Source: Candidatus Woesebacteria bacterium RIFCSPLOWO2_01_FULL_39_10
Lineage (GTDB): Bacteria; Patescibacteriota; Microgenomatia; UBA8517
Assembly (NCBI GenBank): GCA_001793015.1
Contig: MGHC01000029.1
Span: forward strand, 15,381-54,189
Direction: 5' to 3'
Length of the DNA: 38,809 nt
Position numbers and translations under genes: made by a program. Positions 302 to 23,356 of this stretch are shown here, in pieces. The stretch's first letter is position 1. Each line of letters opens with the position of its first letter. The notes under the pieces are model-generated. The model did not search any database and was not told where the DNA came from. It was given only the letters and a program-made list of their open reading frames with translations.

Positions 302-1691
302 CCTTATTCTCTTCTAATCTCTTGAGTAGGTTTTCTCTTTCGTTTGGGACTTTTTTCTCCACGACCTCTTCGAATAATTTCTGTAACATTTCCCCGACCT
401 TTGGACTTGGTTTTATTCCTAAGACTTCCATTACATCATTACCTGATATTTTCAGATCGTGAACAGTGAAAGGTTGTTTCTGAACTTCGATAAGCCGTCT
501 TTTAAATTCCTCAAGCCTCCACGATGTTTCACGAGCGCCACCCCCCAATCGATCTCCAATTCTAAGATCAAGCATCTCAGTTATAAGATCCTGCCCAACC
601 TTTCTCAAAAAGCGTCTTACTGCAGAATCAGTTTGTCGCTCATCTACAGTGAATTGATGATATCGGACAAGGCGCCAAAGCTTATCCTTCTCCTTTTTTG
701 AAAAACGGAGTCTATCGGCAATATTTTTCGCAGTTCGCGCACCGATTACTTCGTGGTTATAAAAGGTAATTGTTCCGTTTTCTAATTTTTTGTAAGTTTG
801 TGGTTTTCCGATGTCGTGAATTAGTGTTGCAAAACGAACAATTGGGTCTGTATTTCTTTCTGCGACGTATTTCAAGGCGAGTAAACTATGCGTTCCAACA
901 TCGTATATATGGTGTCTTCCTGGGGACGCTTGTTCCACACCAAAAGTTTTTTCAAGCTCAGGTAAAATCTCTTCCGAAAGTGTTGAGTTTTTAAACATGA
1001 TAATCCCTTCGTGTGGATGAGCTGAAGCAAATATTTTCAAAAGTTCGTCTTTAACCCGTTCTTTAGAGATTTTATGAATTAAGCGAGCGTTAGCCTTTAT
1101 AGCTTCAAAGGTTTTTTCTTCGATTGTAAAACCCAGCTCAGCCGCGATACGAACAGCGCGCATCATCCGTAAGGCATCTTCAGAAAACCTCTCGTTTGGA
1201 TCTCCAACTGCACGAATAAGTTTATTATCAAGATCACTCTGTCCATCAAAGAGATCGATAATTTCAGCATCGACATTTACCATGTTGTGACTAGTGACTA
1301 GTGACTGGTGACTAGTGACTTTCAGTGCAAGGGCATTAATAGTGAAGTCACGCCGTTTAAGATCCTCTTCAAGACTTTTCCCCCACTCTACTTTGTCAGG
1401 TCGTCTTGAGTCCGAATACCCGTATTCGGTTCTGAAAGTTGTTATTTCATATGGTCTTTCGCCTTCGTTCTCGTTAGGTATTCCGACCATGCCAAAGTCA
1501 TTTGTATAATAAGAATCATCAAAAAGTTTCAAAATTTCCTCGGGTTGCGCATTTGTTGTGAAGTCCCAGTCATAGACTGACTTTGACATTAATATGTCGC
1601 GAATGGCACCTCCAACAACGTAGATTTCGAATCCTTTTTCTTCAAACTTATCTATTATTTCATGAACTTTTGGAGGAACCTTTACTTTCAT
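285..1691 (-). CDS. CCA tRNA nucleotidyltransferase / polyA polymerase family with HD domain
   Basis: GGAIRDILM, DWDFTTNA, RRDFTINALAL, RMMRAVRIAAELGF and HDIGKP motifs. Confidence 0.93.
   Translation of the reverse strand: MKVKVPPKVHEIIDKFEEKGFEIYVVGGAIRDILMSKSVYDWDFTTNAQPEEILKLFDDSYYTNDFGMVGIPNENEGERPYEITTFRTEYGYSDSRRPDKVEWGKSLEEDLKRRDFTINALALKVTSHQSLVTSHNMVNVDAEIIDLFDGQSDLDNKLIRAVGDPNERFSEDALRMMRAVRIAAELGFTIEEKTFEAIKANARLIHKISKERVKDELLKIFASAHPHEGIIMFKNSTLSEEILPELEKTFGVEQASPGRHHIYDVGTHSLLALKYVAERNTDPIVRFATLIHDIGKPQTYKKLENGTITFYNHEVIGARTAKNIADRLRFSKKEKDKLWRLVRYHQFTVDERQTDSAVRRFLRKVGQDLITEMLDLRIGDRLGGGARETSWRLEEFKRRLIEVQKQPFTVHDLKISGNDVMEVLGIKPSPKVGEMLQKLFEEVVEKKVPNERENLLKRLEENKDEKEN
1287..1321. 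repeat. Heptanucleotide tandem repeat (GTGACTN)x5 inside the CCA-adding enzyme gene
   Basis: gtgacta gtgacta gtgactg gtgacta gtgactt; encodes ...VTSHQSLVTSH... just after the RRDFTINALAL motif. Confidence 0.95.
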
Positions 1692-1756: not shown

Positions 1757-3676
1757 ATGAAAAATAATTCTTTAAAGTGGGAAGTACTCCACAAATCGCC
1801 AGTCACTAGTCACAAGTCACCAGAAATTATTGATATTCTTTTGGAAAATCGGGGACTTAACACAAAGAAACAAAAAGATGAATTTTTTAATCCTACAGAC
1901 CCTAAAAAGATAGAACTAAAGGAATTAGGAATTAGCGATAAATCTTTAAAAAAGGCAATTAAGAGGATAAAAAAAGCAATCGATAAGGACGAACATATGA
2001 TAATTTACGGTGACTATGATGCTGACGGGGTATGTGCAACAGCAATTTTATGGGAATGTCTTTATTCTTTAACTAAAAACGTTCAACCTTATATTCCCGA
2101 TCGGTTCACTGAAGGGTATGGAATGAATGCTGATACAATCTCAAAACTCAAATCGGAAAACTCAAAACTGAGACTAATAGTGACTGTAGATAACGGTATA
2201 GTAGCTAATGAGGCAATTGATTGTGCAAACGAACTAGGAATTGATGTTATCGTTGCTGATCACCATTTGGAGGGAAAGAAACTTCCAAAAGCACATTCCA
2301 TAATTCACACGACCAAGATTTGCGGATCAGCTATTGCTTGGATATTCTCTCGCGAAATCAATAAAAAACTAATCACTAGTCACACCCTCGGCCTGAGCTC
2401 GGGTCGAAGGCAGTCACCAGTCACCAATCTTGAACTTGCTGCCATAGGAACGATTGCCGATCAGATGCCACTTCTTGGACCAAACCGTTCCTTTGCGAAG
2501 CATGGACTTGAAGCGTTGAATAAAACCAAAAGACCGGGACTAATCGCTCTTTTTGAAGAAGCGGCGTTGATTGAGAGTCAAACCCGCCTTCGCCAAAAGG
2601 CTTCGGCGAGGCAAGTCGGAACTTATGAGGTTAATTTTGTTATTGCTCCACGGATTAACGCTATGGGGAGAATGGAGCATGCGATAGATTCGCTAAGACT
2701 TTTATGTACAACCAATAAACCTCGGGCTAATGAATTGGCGCGACACTTGGCAAAGACTAACCGTGAGAGACAAAGAATAGTTGATGAGATCGTTTTACAT
2801 GCAAGAAATGCTGCCCTGAAAATAAAGTGGCGAGGAGCAATTATCCTTGTCCATGAATCGTATCACGAGGGAGTCATAGGTCTAGCGGCGTCAAAACTAG
2901 TGGAAGAATTTTATCGACCTTCAATAGTTATTTCTAAAGGATCGGAATTTTCCAAAGCATCTGCCCGTTCAATTTCAGGAATTAACATAATAGAGTTGAT
3001 TAACAAAGTTGGAATTATTGAGGGCGGCGGCGGTCATCCAATGGCCGCAGGATTTACTATAAAAACTGAAAAGATTGAGAAATTTATACGAAAGTTCGAT
3101 AAAGCCACCAAGCCCTATTTTACTGAAGATGTTTTACATAAAAAACTTAAAATAGATAGTGAAATTGATTTTGAGGCGATTAATTTAGATCTTTGGGAAG
3201 TTTTAAAGAAATTCGAGCCGACTGGCATTGGGAATCCAAGACCTTGCTTTGCAACAAAACAGGTTAACGTCGCGAGTGCCAGAGTTGTTGGGGGAGATGG
3301 AAAACATTTGAAATTAAATTTGGAAAAACAAGGAGTAACTTTTGAAGCAATAGGATTTGGGATAGGAAATCTTTACGTGAACCTTTCTTCTACAAAGCCA
3401 ATCGATGTTGCATATACCGTTGATGAGAATATCTGGAACGGGAATAAAAAATTACAACTTAAAATTAAAGATATGAAGCTCCCCACGACCTTACGGTCGG
3501 GGTATCCCTTCGGTCTGAGCACTCAGGGTCGAAGACTTCTCCCCTCGCTTCGTCGGGAGCGGAATCCCTCGCGCCGTCGGCAAAGCCTTTGGCGACGTTC
3601 GACCGAAGCGAAGGTCCTTCGCTCCATCCGCCGAGTCAGACTCGGGGGTATTTCGCGAAGGGGGATAAAAGTTTAA
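1757..3676 (+). CDS. recJ: Single-stranded-DNA-specific exonuclease RecJ (DHH/DHHA1), C-terminus extended by repeat-derived sequence
   Basis: YGDYDADGVCATAIL, VTVDNG, VADHH, APRINAMGR and GGGGHPMAAG motifs; start moved from 1583 to MKNNSLKW at 1757, because the upstream ORF overlaps the divergent gene. Confidence 0.93.
   Translation: MKNNSLKWEVLHKSPVTSHKSPEIIDILLENRGLNTKKQKDEFFNPTDPKKIELKELGISDKSLKKAIKRIKKAIDKDEHMIIYGDYDADGVCATAILWECLYSLTKNVQPYIPDRFTEGYGMNADTISKLKSENSKLRLIVTVDNGIVANEAIDCANELGIDVIVADHHLEGKKLPKAHSIIHTTKICGSAIAWIFSREINKKLITSHTLGLSSGRRQSPVTNLELAAIGTIADQMPLLGPNRSFAKHGLEALNKTKRPGLIALFEEAALIESQTRLRQKASARQVGTYEVNFVIAPRINAMGRMEHAIDSLRLLCTTNKPRANELARHLAKTNRERQRIVDEIVLHARNAALKIKWRGAIILVHESYHEGVIGLAASKLVEEFYRPSIVISKGSEFSKASARSISGINIIELINKVGIIEGGGGHPMAAGFTIKTEKIEKFIRKFDKATKPYFTEDVLHKKLKIDSEIDFEAINLDLWEVLKKFEPTGIGNPRPCFATKQVNVASARVVGGDGKHLKLNLEKQGVTFEAIGFGIGNLYVNLSSTKPIDVAYTVDENIWNGNKKLQLKIKDMKLPTTLRSGYPFGLSTQGRRLLPSLRRERNPSRRRQSLWRRSTEAKVLRSIRRVRLGGISRRGIKV
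1801..1821. repeat. Heptamer repeat (AGTCACN)x3 in the recJ N-terminus
   Basis: agtcact agtcaca agtcacc; same unit (reverse complement) as 1287-1321. Confidence 0.9.
2371..2425. repeat. Composite repeat in recJ: four heptamers split by a 27-bp palindromic piece
   Basis: aatcact agtcaca [ccctcggcctgagctcgggtcgaaggc] agtcacc agtcacc; bracketed part resembles cccttcggtctgagcactcagggtcgaag in the 3471-3670 element. Confidence 0.85.
2582..2618. repeat. GC-rich palindromic insertion in recJ
   Basis: acccGCCTTCGCCaaaaggcttcGGCGAGGCaagtcgg; encodes TRLRQKASARQVG immediately before the conserved RecJ block TYEVNFVIAPRINAMGR. Confidence 0.75.
3471..3670 (+). repeat. Modular palindromic element, copy A (~200 bp), in frame at the 3' end of recJ
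   Basis: Starts ATATGAAGCTCCC, ends CGCGAAGGGGGATAAAA; near-identical over long stretches to the reverse complement of 18090-18328. Confidence 0.95.
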
Positions 3677-18089: not shown

Positions 18090-18328
18090 TTTTATCCCCC
18101 TTCGCAGAAAACCTTGGGCGTCCTTCGACAGGCTCAGGATGGTGAGCATTGTCGAACCATAAGCCCGTGGATGAATGCGAAGAAATTTCTGCTTCGGTCG
18201 AACGTCGCCAAAGGCTTTGCCGACGGCGCGAGGGATTTCGCTCCCGACGAAGCACGGGGAGAAGTCTTCGACCCTGAGTGCTCAGACCGAAGGGATACCC
18301 CGACCGTAAGGTCGAGGGAGCTTCATAT
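18090..18328 (-). repeat. Modular palindromic element, copy B (~240 bp), intergenic, with a nested REP-like insertion
   Basis: Reverse complement runs ATATGAAGCTCCC...CTGCGAAGGGGGATAAAA, matching copy A; extra tccttcgacaggctcaggatggtgagcattgtcgaacc at 18121-18158. Confidence 0.95.
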
Positions 18329-19005: not shown

Positions 19006-19074
19006 CTCACTCAGGACATTCGACATTATACATAGGGCCGAAGGCCATGAGCGACCGAAAGGAGTCGAATGGCT
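19006..19074. repeat. ~69-bp repeat, copy 1
   Basis: ctcactcaggacattcgacattatacatagggccgaaggccatgagcgaccgaaaggagtcgaatggctg; two substitutions relative to 20167-20236. Confidence 0.9.
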
Positions 19075-19172
19075 GGCGACTGTAGACGCTATTCGAACCT
19101 ATTTTATCACGACAAAAGAGCCTGTTTTTATCCCCTCTTTTGTATAGCTAGCTTTCGAGATATTATTTATAT

Positions 19173-20166: not shown

Positions 20167-20236
20167 CTCACTCAGGACATTCGACATTATATATAGGGCC
20201 GAAGGCCATGAGCGACTGAAAGGAGTCGAATGGCTG
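20167..20236. repeat. ~69-bp repeat, copy 2, running into the 3' end of tRNA-Gln
   Basis: Same sequence as 19006-19074; its last bases tggctg are the tRNA-Gln CCA tail, discriminator and first acceptor bases (reverse strand). Confidence 0.9.
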
Positions 20237-20709: not shown

Positions 20710-21489
20710 TTAAAATAACCCAGCTTGTTTAGTTGGTGTGTCTTTTGGATAGGAGAAATCGACCTCGACTTTTTGTAAGGTGTTCCATTTATCTTTAAGA
20801 AGAAGGTGTCCGTTTTGAAGCGCGTAGTCGTAAATATCTCGGGTAATTAACACATCTGCCTCGCAATATTTTTTTAATTTTTCCAAACTTTCCTTATCTC
20901 CCTTTTGCCAATAATATACGGCATTTATTCCCACATCCGTTTTTTCCCGATCCAGTGTTTCTTTTGCGATTGCGTCCAAGGCGATTCGATGACCAAAGAC
21001 TTCTTTGACTTTTTGCATAATGTCAAAGTGTGGAAGTTTTTGAAAAGGGAAGTTGGTGTATGGAGAAAGAGCGGGAATATCAAATCCAAGCGAATTAAAT
21101 CCAATTATCCTATCAGCACTTTGGAAAAGCGGCCACATTTTATCCCCCTTCGCGAAATACCCTGGGCGTATGCCCGCGGATGAACGCGAAGAATATTTCG
21201 CTTCGGTCGAACGTCGCCAAAGGCTTTGCCGACGGCGCGAGGGATTTCTCTCCCTACGAAGCGAGGGAGATTCATCAAAATCCTTTTCCCAGAAGCTTTG
21301 CATTTTGCCTTCGACTACGCTCAGGACAGTGTGTCCTTCGATAGTTCGATTTTGCTCACCACTAAAGCTTTCATCAATTTTTCTTGAATAAACTGAAACA
21401 ATTGAGACTCCAAGATCAGCTGGGTTAAATCCCTCAATATCTCCAAAAAGTTTCTTCGTTTCAACATCGAAAAATACTTCCGAAAGCAT
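20710..21489 (-). CDS. RNase H-like 3'-5' exonuclease (DEDD type) containing in-frame repeat insertions
   Basis: Exo I FFDVETKK, Exo II RIIGFNSLGFDIPAL, Exo III YCEADVLITRDIYDYA; repeat-encoded SPSLRRERNPSRRRQSLWRRSTEAKYSS... lies between Exo I and Exo II. Confidence 0.85.
   Translation of the reverse strand: MLSEVFFDVETKKLFGDIEGFNPADLGVSIVSVYSRKIDESFSGEQNRTIEGHTVLSVVEGKMQSFWEKDFDESPSLRRERNPSRRRQSLWRRSTEAKYSSRSSAGIRPGYFAKGDKMWPLFQSADRIIGFNSLGFDIPALSPYTNFPFQKLPHFDIMQKVKEVFGHRIALDAIAKETLDREKTDVGINAVYYWQKGDKESLEKLKKYCEADVLITRDIYDYALQNGHLLLKDKWNTLQKVEVDFSYPKDTPTKQAGLF
21138..21275 (-). repeat. Modular palindromic element, copy C (138 bp), in frame within the exonuclease gene
   Basis: Reverse complement ATGAATCTCCCTCGCTTCG...CGTCGGCAAAGCCTTTGGCGACGTTCGACCGAAGCGAA...CGCGAAGGGGGATAAAA; lacks the first two hairpins of A and B. 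Confidence 0.95.
21308..21360. repeat. REP-like repeat within the exonuclease gene
   Basis: ccttcgactacgctcaggacagtgtgtccttcgatagttcgattttgctcacc; related to 18121-18158 and 20119-20190. Confidence 0.8.
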
Positions 21490-21855: not shown

Positions 21856-22103
21856 TTGTATCGCTGCTTTCTGGCTATATGAAATGTTATTACTTTGATT
21901 CCAACCTCAATTATATCATAGATTATTCTAACGTCGTGTTCTTGGTCAATTTGGTCAACTACAGCAAAATTTCCGTATTTTGTCTTGGATCTAGATCTTG
22001 GATTTTCTAAAAATTTCCTTAATTTTCTTTTGGTGATTTTGAATTTCTTGATATCTTTACGCTTGAGTTTCTCTTCGGCGTGTTTTGTTAATATAACTTT
22101 CAT
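21852..22103 (-). CDS. DUF4258-like protein (putative toxin)
   Basis: MKVILTKHAEEKLKRKDI...VRIIYDII..IKVITFH; start trimmed from 22169 to 22103; overlaps both neighbours by 4 bp. Confidence 0.75.
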   Translation of the reverse strand: MKVILTKHAEEKLKRKDIKKFKITKRKLRKFLENPRSRSKTKYGNFAVVDQIDQEHDVRIIYDIIEVGIKVITFHIARKQRYK

Positions 22104-23356
22104 TTCCCTATGAATAAGATTACATTGGGTAAGTTGCGGCCGGGGCCGATTTTGTAGCCTCCGCTCCATAAAGCAGTTGAACCACCGTCGTCGAGATTTA
22201 GAGCATTTTCCATACCCATTGTCCGAAGTACACGTGCGGCTTCAGCAACAGTTGCTGAATGAACAACACCTATATAAACAGTATTTCCTTTGTTTGCAAC
22301 AAAACTTCTGCCTCCTTTAGAACCTTTTTTGGGATCGTCATCTCCTCCGAATGCAATATTTCCGCCTTGTACTAGCATTGGAAAATTCGAGAGCATACTG
22401 TCAATTCCAGTATCTCTACCCCATTGCGATGCCTGTCCCACGAAACGGATATATGAACCACCAAAAATAACTGCTGGATTGTTGCTGTAGACATTATTTC
22501 CAGAATTAAAGTAGGTTTTTTTATAATTCATCACCAAAAGATCGTAAGTGTTAGTTTTTCCAGCACATGAAGGGTATTCGGCAGGGCAAAAGTAGCTGCC
22601 GTTTACTCCTGCGTATGCACCGTTTCTGGAAACATATGTTGCTAAAGGAAGAACCGGGCAATCATTCGAACAATCGCTATCAGAGGCTGTATCTACAATT
22701 ACTTTTGTTGAACCCAAATCTCCTGCAACAATACTTACTAAGTATGAACCAAGTCCTTCAACAGCAACTTGCTGACGACTGTATCCAGCACCCGGTGGAG
22801 CATTATTCTGGGGAACATTAGCAGGAATTGTGAATGACGTAGCAAGTTCTTCTTCTTCTTTTTTGATTGCCGCTGTAATTTGGGAAAGCACATCGTTGGC
22901 GCCACTAAAATCTCTTTGGGAAATTTTAAATAAGACATCAGCATATTGTTTCTCGAGAGCGAGAGTGTCTTTTGATTTTGATCTTAAGTCGAGTAAATCC
23001 TCATAAACAGCAATTGATTGATTGAATGTTTTTTGCATGGTCGCAATTTCCTTTTGCAGCTCTTCATTTTTCTTTTGAGGGTCTTGATTTTTCAGTTCTT
23101 CCAACTCTTTGGCAATTTTTTCCAATTCAACCAAATTCTTATCTTTTTCTTCTGTTAAATTTTGGACGATTGTGGTGAGAGTTGTTATTTTTCTATTTGC
23201 AAAAAGATAGCCGACCGCCAGGATAATTATTAGAATAACTATTATTGGAATGTGCTTGTCGGGTTTAAAACGAAACTTTGCAAGCTTATATTTGGGTAAA
23301 TTTATCCCCCTTCGCGAAATACCTTGGGCGTAAGCTTGAGTGAGATTCATTTTCAC
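22100..23356 (-). CDS. Phosphodiester glycosidase (NAGPA-domain) family protein with coiled coil and transmembrane anchor
   Basis: GAYAGVNGSYFCPAEYPSC, NLDDGGSTALWSGG; transmembrane segment IPIIVILIIILAVGYLFA. Confidence 0.88.
   Translation of the reverse strand: MKMNLTQAYAQGISRRGINLPKYKLAKFRFKPDKHIPIIVILIIILAVGYLFANRKITTLTTIVQNLTEEKDKNLVELEKIAKELEELKNQDPQKKNEELQKEIATMQKTFNQSIAVYEDLLDLRSKSKDTLALEKQYADVLFKISQRDFSGANDVLSQITAAIKKEEEELATSFTIPANVPQNNAPPGAGYSRQQVAVEGLGSYLVSIVAGDLGSTKVIVDTASDSDCSNDCPVLPLATYVSRNGAYAGVNGSYFCPAEYPSCAGKTNTYDLLVMNYKKTYFNSGNNVYSNNPAVIFGGSYIRFVGQASQWGRDTGIDSMLSNFPMLVQGGNIAFGGDDDPKKGSKGGRSFVANKGNTVYIGVVHSATVAEAARVLRTMGMENALNLDDGGSTALWSGGYKIGPGRNLPNVILFIGK
23301..23350 (-). 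repeat. Modular palindromic element, minimal copy D (~50 bp), encoding the N-terminus of the NAGPA-domain protein
   Basis: Reverse complement ATGAATCTCACTCAAGCTTACGCCCAAGGTATTTCGCGAAGGGGGATAAA shares both termini with copies A-C. Confidence 0.85.

Follow-up and report, generated by a model that had tools for sequence, protein, structure and literature searches.

The recJ gene of Candidatus Woesebacteria bacterium RIFCSPLOWO2_01_FULL_39_10 carries four repeat segments that are read in frame, and the catalytic core of the encoded nuclease is intact. Tolerated in-frame repeat insertion is well supported as a description of this gene. We consider it probable that palindromes linked to RAYT transposases, together with other dispersed repeats, landed in disordered loops of conserved proteins, and that recJ is the heaviest case of this. 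The window, a stretch of 38,809 nucleotides, corresponds to C29:15381-54189 of a genome of 1.15 Mb in 38 contigs, and the analysis covered about 890 kb of genome sequence, in stretches. The features of recJ are the following.

1757..3676, plus strand: recJ coding sequence of 639 codons, recognised by its open reading frame, domains and invariant residues
1801..1821, plus strand: insert 1, a run of three TAGTCAC-type heptamers located in the N-terminal linker, encoding the peptide PVTSHKSP (seen in the sequence, the alignment to relatives and the heptamer scan)
2370..2426, plus strand: insert 2, heptamers split by a hairpin, in the loop that connects helix 190-206 to helix 225-234
2385..2410, plus strand: hairpin core of insert 2, CCCTCGGCCTGAGCTCGGGTCGAAGG, which resembles the palindrome nested in copy A
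2586..2612, plus strand: insert 3, an imperfect hairpin GCCTTCGCC...GGCGAGGC in the loop that connects helix 260-268 to helix 289-306
3473..3667, plus strand: copy A, a multi-hairpin element ATGAAGCTCC...GGGGGATAAA that takes the place of the stop codon and encodes a 62-residue tail
3506..3535, plus strand: 30-nt palindrome nested in copy A, absent from all 12 other aligned copies

The region had been read as a single recJ gene in the first-pass annotation. One uninterrupted reading frame spans 1757-3676 on the plus strand, and it matches the NCBIfam recJ model with an E value of 5e-139. The domain order DHH, DHHA1, OB is that of a full RecJ. The motifs DYDADG, DHH, APRINAMGR and GGGGHPMAAG, which had been described as intact, are all present, and an alignment of 25 RecJs shows every invariant residue to be retained. 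By its catalytic motifs and the order of its domains, the product is a RecJ. The closest RecJs by sequence, all from Candidatus Woesebacteria, share 65, 62 and 60% identity with it, which places the genome in the Microgenomates (CPR). Judged from its sequence, this RecJ is probably active with the inserts present. Immediately 5′ of the gene, at 1717-1749, lies an octamer tandem repeat, AGGATATC.

The heptamers, the composite, the GCCTTCGCC...GGCGAGGC hairpin and copy A were all found at the positions reported earlier, and they are inserted repeats in frame, as had been assumed. The further statement that all of them interrupt recJ between conserved motifs holds for inserts 2 and 3 but not for insert 1 and copy A when 29 relatives are aligned. 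The heptamers at 1801-1821 precede the first motif, in a linker that is of different length in different relatives. Copy A is a C-terminal extension: the relatives end at its start or a few residues from it, and this recJ continues for about 62 residues past the last domain. Most of the 29 relatives lack the segments, and by this comparison inserts 2 and 3 are true loop insertions. The number of four is correct for the segments, but it undercounts the elements, since some of the repeats are nested. Insert 2 consists of heptamers, a 26-nt hairpin and again heptamers, a palindrome of 30 nt is placed within copy A, and a hairpin also lies within a heptamer array at 48.1 kb of contig C26.

The inserts were also mapped on a structure model, a check that had been suggested with the original reading. 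In the AlphaFold model of RecJ, which has a mean pLDDT of 85.6, the only segments with pLDDT below 50 are residues 209-220, 275-282, 579-614 and 623-639. These correspond to inserts 2 and 3 and the tail, which are thus confined to low-confidence loops and the C-terminus, positions compatible with the predicted fold. The segments would have survived in recJ because they are in frame, lie in disordered loops and at the stop codon and leave the core untouched.

The repeats are dispersed in the genome, and many of the copies lie in genes. Copy-A-like sequences occur at 24 places, and insert 3 has relatives at three further loci, of which two are intragenic. The copy-A family comprises structured elements with the fixed ends ATGAAGCTCC...GGATAAA. 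The folding z-score of copy A is −2.7, and pairing in its first stem is preserved through changes on both sides, so that the stem is covarying. None of the inserts matched a family in an Rfam search. At the site of copy A, the nearest relative reads GAT-TTA-AAG-CTT-AGT-TAA; here GAT-ATG-AAG-CTC is followed by the element and then by AGTTTAA. The conserved RecJ end is replaced by the first residues encoded by copy A. The exact insertion site is ambiguous because the host AAAGCTT resembles the start of copy A, although the ends of the element are fixed. The following further members of the family lie in the window.

18169..18328, minus strand: sister copy of copy A, 93% identical, outside any called gene
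21138..21283, minus strand: sister copy of copy A, in frame within an RNase_H_2-type nuclease gene (20710-21489)
23277..23323, minus strand: fragment from the 3′ end of a copy-A-family element, in which an open frame of 416 residues (22100-23350) begins

In the RNase_H_2-type gene, which is on the minus strand, the copy-A relative amounts to 44 residues, and the gene contains a second hairpin insert. The 3′ fragment (MNLTQAYAQGISRRG...) may supply the start codon and the N-terminus of the 22100-23350 frame, also on the minus strand. A 70-nt direct repeat at 19006-19075 and 20167-20236 (97% identical, 1.2 kb apart) is unrelated to copy A.

Eleven arrays of TAGTCAC-type heptamers were counted in 612 kb, versus none in shuffled sequence. 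All 11 lie within predicted genes and in one common orientation relative to the gene; the opposite strand of the heptamers reads TGA and TAG. Coding sequence makes up 87% of the total, so the location inside genes is not surprising by itself. Besides those of recJ, the following array was found in the window.

1287..1320, minus strand: array of heptamers read in frame within the gene of the CCA-adding enzyme (285-1691), encoding the peptide VTSHQSLVTSH

A second heptamer family, AATTTCC, adjoins the TAGTCAC type in a 5′-3′ exonuclease gene; it is seen in L079 (C27:51.1-51.2 kb), in L073-L076 and elsewhere too.

In eight other genera the same two loops of RecJ are occupied by inserts that are unrelated and for the most part palindromic. 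Of 30 RecJs, 26 have a loop 3 of 6-8 residues. It is longer in this genome, G017, G020 and G011, where the loop sequences are unrelated to one another; three of the four give clear hairpins, that of G017 with perfect 9-nt arms. Loop 2 reaches at least 20 residues in seven genomes, six of them with strong hairpins; in G030 (L054) it contains the palindrome ATTCCCGCGAAAGCGGGAAT, which encodes HSRESGNP. The CCA-adding enzyme, encoded next to recJ, follows this pattern: one of its loops holds heptamers in this genome and also inserts in three related genera, again heptameric in G014 but of other kinds in G017 and G020. Because unrelated inserts are found in the same loops, loops 2 and 3 of RecJ and the loop of the CCA-adding enzyme can be read as repeated landing sites. 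The insert trait is scattered on the RecJ tree, with 7 changes versus 7.9 for shuffled labels. A similar hotspot pattern is known in Rickettsia for the palindromic elements RPE-4, -6 and -7 (PMC3767692).

A link of the repeats to Y1/RAYT transposases is better supported than one to RecJ function. The Y1 transposase family PF01797 (Y1_Tnp) is matched 8 times in the genome, 7 times above the cut-off, and most of these genes encode about 225 residues and are flanked by palindromes. For one Y1 gene checked against NCBIfam, the REP-associated tyrosine transposase (REP_Tyr_transpos) was the sole match, under the cut-off. The association was assessed in 30 genomes, with insert status fixed after the first genomes and before the remaining 19 were searched. 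Y1 genes above the cut-off are present in all nine genomes with RecJ loop inserts and in 6 of the 21 without them (p = 0.00035), and the held-out 19 genomes alone gave 3/3 versus 5/16 (p = 0.058; 0.017 by ranks); these values take no account of kinship, as supported independent pairs on the RecJ tree were too few for a kinship-paired test. Genomes with inserts are larger on average (p = 0.006), and the link persists among genomes of at least 0.9 Mb (9/9 versus 3/11). As controls, rve transposases were found in none of the nine insert genomes versus 8 of the 21 others, and DDE_Tnp_1 in none of the nine versus 2 of the 21; the association seen for Y1 is absent from both. Three genomes, G016, G006 and G007, have Y1 genes and no RecJ inserts. 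The association suggests that Y1 proteins move these palindromes, as a correlation and not as proof.

The palindromes flanking the RAYT genes do not match recJ inserts 2 and 3, and the flanks were rejected as their direct source for this reason. The DNA adjoining one RAYT gene partly matches an insert in IF-2. The RAYT-like gene at L103:56-625 (contig C10) itself carries a repeated peptide insert, KSPRFSRKGSN...KSPRFSRS. Relatives of copy A occur in G008, which has no Y1 gene; copy A may therefore move by other means. A RAYT engine is thus likely for the palindromes and open for copy A, and it is not needed for the heptamers.

We propose that the present recJ arose through separate insertions of three kinds of repeat, namely heptameric tandem arrays, GC-rich single-hairpin palindromes and the multi-hairpin copy A. 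RAYT-like Y1 transposases would act on hairpins in single-stranded DNA and so move the palindromes, and the heptamers would grow by slippage. Selection would retain only the in-frame landings in permissive loops, where the added peptides may be near neutral. The palindromes could instead have been made locally, by template switching or replication slippage, with no mobile element involved. Hairpins and tandem repeats are the usual products of such errors, and the heptamers fit this origin well. However, homologues of copy A and of insert 3 lie at distant loci, palindromes are placed into palindromes at set points, and the inserts are associated with Y1 genes. A purely local origin is therefore unlikely.

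The position of recJ among the genes of this organism was assessed in a survey of its own genes against orthologs in stretches of three relatives, comprising 312 genes and 95.5 thousand aligned residues. A strict scan for perfect-arm hairpins failed to detect the hairpins of recJ because these are imperfect, and ortholog-based detection was used instead. An insert was counted if it was internal, in frame, 7 or more residues long and encoded by hairpin or heptamer DNA. This gave 29 inserts in 22 of the 312 genes, of which a few may be false, the hairpin threshold being the 5% tail of control windows. Repeats are thus inserted in frame in conserved genes and absent from the orthologs; the carriers include IF-2, TsaD, GatB, Obg and peptidyl-tRNA hydrolase. 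Only one such insert was found in the three relatives, so the repeat load is specific to some lineages. With three inserts, recJ is the first of the 312 genes (insert 1 was uncounted, and the tail was taken as internal by the aligner). The unusual density attributed to recJ is confirmed in this respect, but it exceeds expectation modestly: with inserts placed at random, a count of three would be reached in at least one gene with a probability of about 0.07, and a count of four with one of about 0.003. Equal density in other genes had been named as the finding that would make recJ unexceptional, and the survey goes part of the way towards it, with two inserts in each of five other genes. The recJ gene is the top of one distribution and the heaviest case of a genome-wide process, neither a separate case nor a special target. 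The recF gene (L079:4909-5913, minus strand), which is partly masked with N, carries apparently more than one repeat-like insert (NLPAGRQ; MVRHAHHPERSRGI).

The first-pass annotation had also speculated that the repeats depend on recombination or repair. In a broader form, repair genes including recJ would preferentially be hit by repeats or keep them, and altered repair would aid the spread of repeats or make the cell a mutator. REPs have earlier been proposed to lie often within repair genes in other phyla (PMC3733652). Of the 20 class-L genes (replication, recombination and repair) in the first sample, 7 contained inserts, versus 9 of 160 others (p = 0.0004), with gene classes assigned by eye and some carriers already known. 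The seven carriers are recJ, rarA, recF, mutM, the 5′-3′ exonuclease gene, an Ogt-like gene and the RNase_H_2 nuclease gene, and three of them lie within 6 kb of one another on C27. In the held-out sample, for which the hypothesis was fixed beforehand, the enrichment was absent, with inserts in 0 of 8 class-L genes versus 6 of 124 others. The pooled counts of 7/28 versus 15/284 rest on the first sample. Many carriers, such as IF-2 and the others named above, have functions other than repair. A preference for repair genes was dropped as a claim, and we regard it as improbable. We give still less credence to a far-reaching version of the transposase model, in which RAYTs insert hairpins into coding genes across Microgenomates so often that a few disordered loops (loops 2 and 3 of RecJ and the loop of the CCA-adding enzyme) are hit repeatedly, while selection would retain the inserts of recJ and other repair genes, which in turn would feed back on the spread of repeats.

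The insert count of recJ, the highest among the tested genes, could also mark relaxed selection on a dispensable gene that is decaying. The 639-codon frame is free of frameshifts, every invariant catalytic residue is retained, and the predicted fold is confident with inserts restricted to loops and tail, all of which makes decay very improbable. The remaining idea, the second of the refuting outcomes named beforehand, is that RecJ possessed the segments ancestrally and lost them in other lineages. It would suit the variable length of loop 2 across the class and can practically be dismissed, as most of the 29 relatives lack the segments, GC-rich repeats of this kind occur elsewhere in the genome, and the nearest relative reads straight to the stop codon at the copy-A site.

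Tolerated insertion of repeats, the reading that we prefer, has known counterparts. In Rickettsia and Wolbachia, short palindromic repeats lie in frame in many unrelated conserved genes, and orthologs carry different elements at hotspots (PMC10969869, PMC3767692). The likeness of the present inserts to these palindromic elements of Rickettsia (RPE) and Wolbachia is one of kind. RPEs belong to another phylum, and the heptamer arrays, the nested repeats and the stop-replacing element distinguish the present case. A link to Y1 genes, which was measured here, is unreported for RPEs in these two papers. Intragenic REPs are known from several phyla, several of them in repair genes (PMC3733652). Like RAYT/REPtron systems, the genome described here combines hairpins of 20-40 nt inside genes with Y1_Tnp matches that are mostly palindrome-flanked. 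It differs in that recJ inserts 2 and 3, as read from the sequence, lack a GTAG or CGTC tag at the hairpin foot and have no cognate match in the RAYT flanks, and in that the transposase checked falls under the REP_Tyr_transpos cut-off. MITEs carrying open frames are small non-coding repeats that fuse new peptides to genes (PMC10969869). Copy A similarly adds a peptide to a gene, but none of terminal inverted repeats, target duplication or a partner transposase is established for it. No earlier report of coding palindromes, heptamers or RAYTs in CPR was found in the open-licence literature. In-frame palindromes and intragenic REPs are already known; new here is that heptamers, nested palindromes and a stop-replacing element occur together, and that a link to Y1 genes was measured.

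What moves RPEs is unstated in the cited papers on in-frame palindromic repeats. Long hairpin-forming loops of RecJ, which can be read in any genome, track one transposase family and not two others, and the engine is therefore testable by comparative genomics and biochemistry. A small CPR genome is able to bear a heavy load of coding repeats, and this load misleads the annotation of insert and tail peptides.
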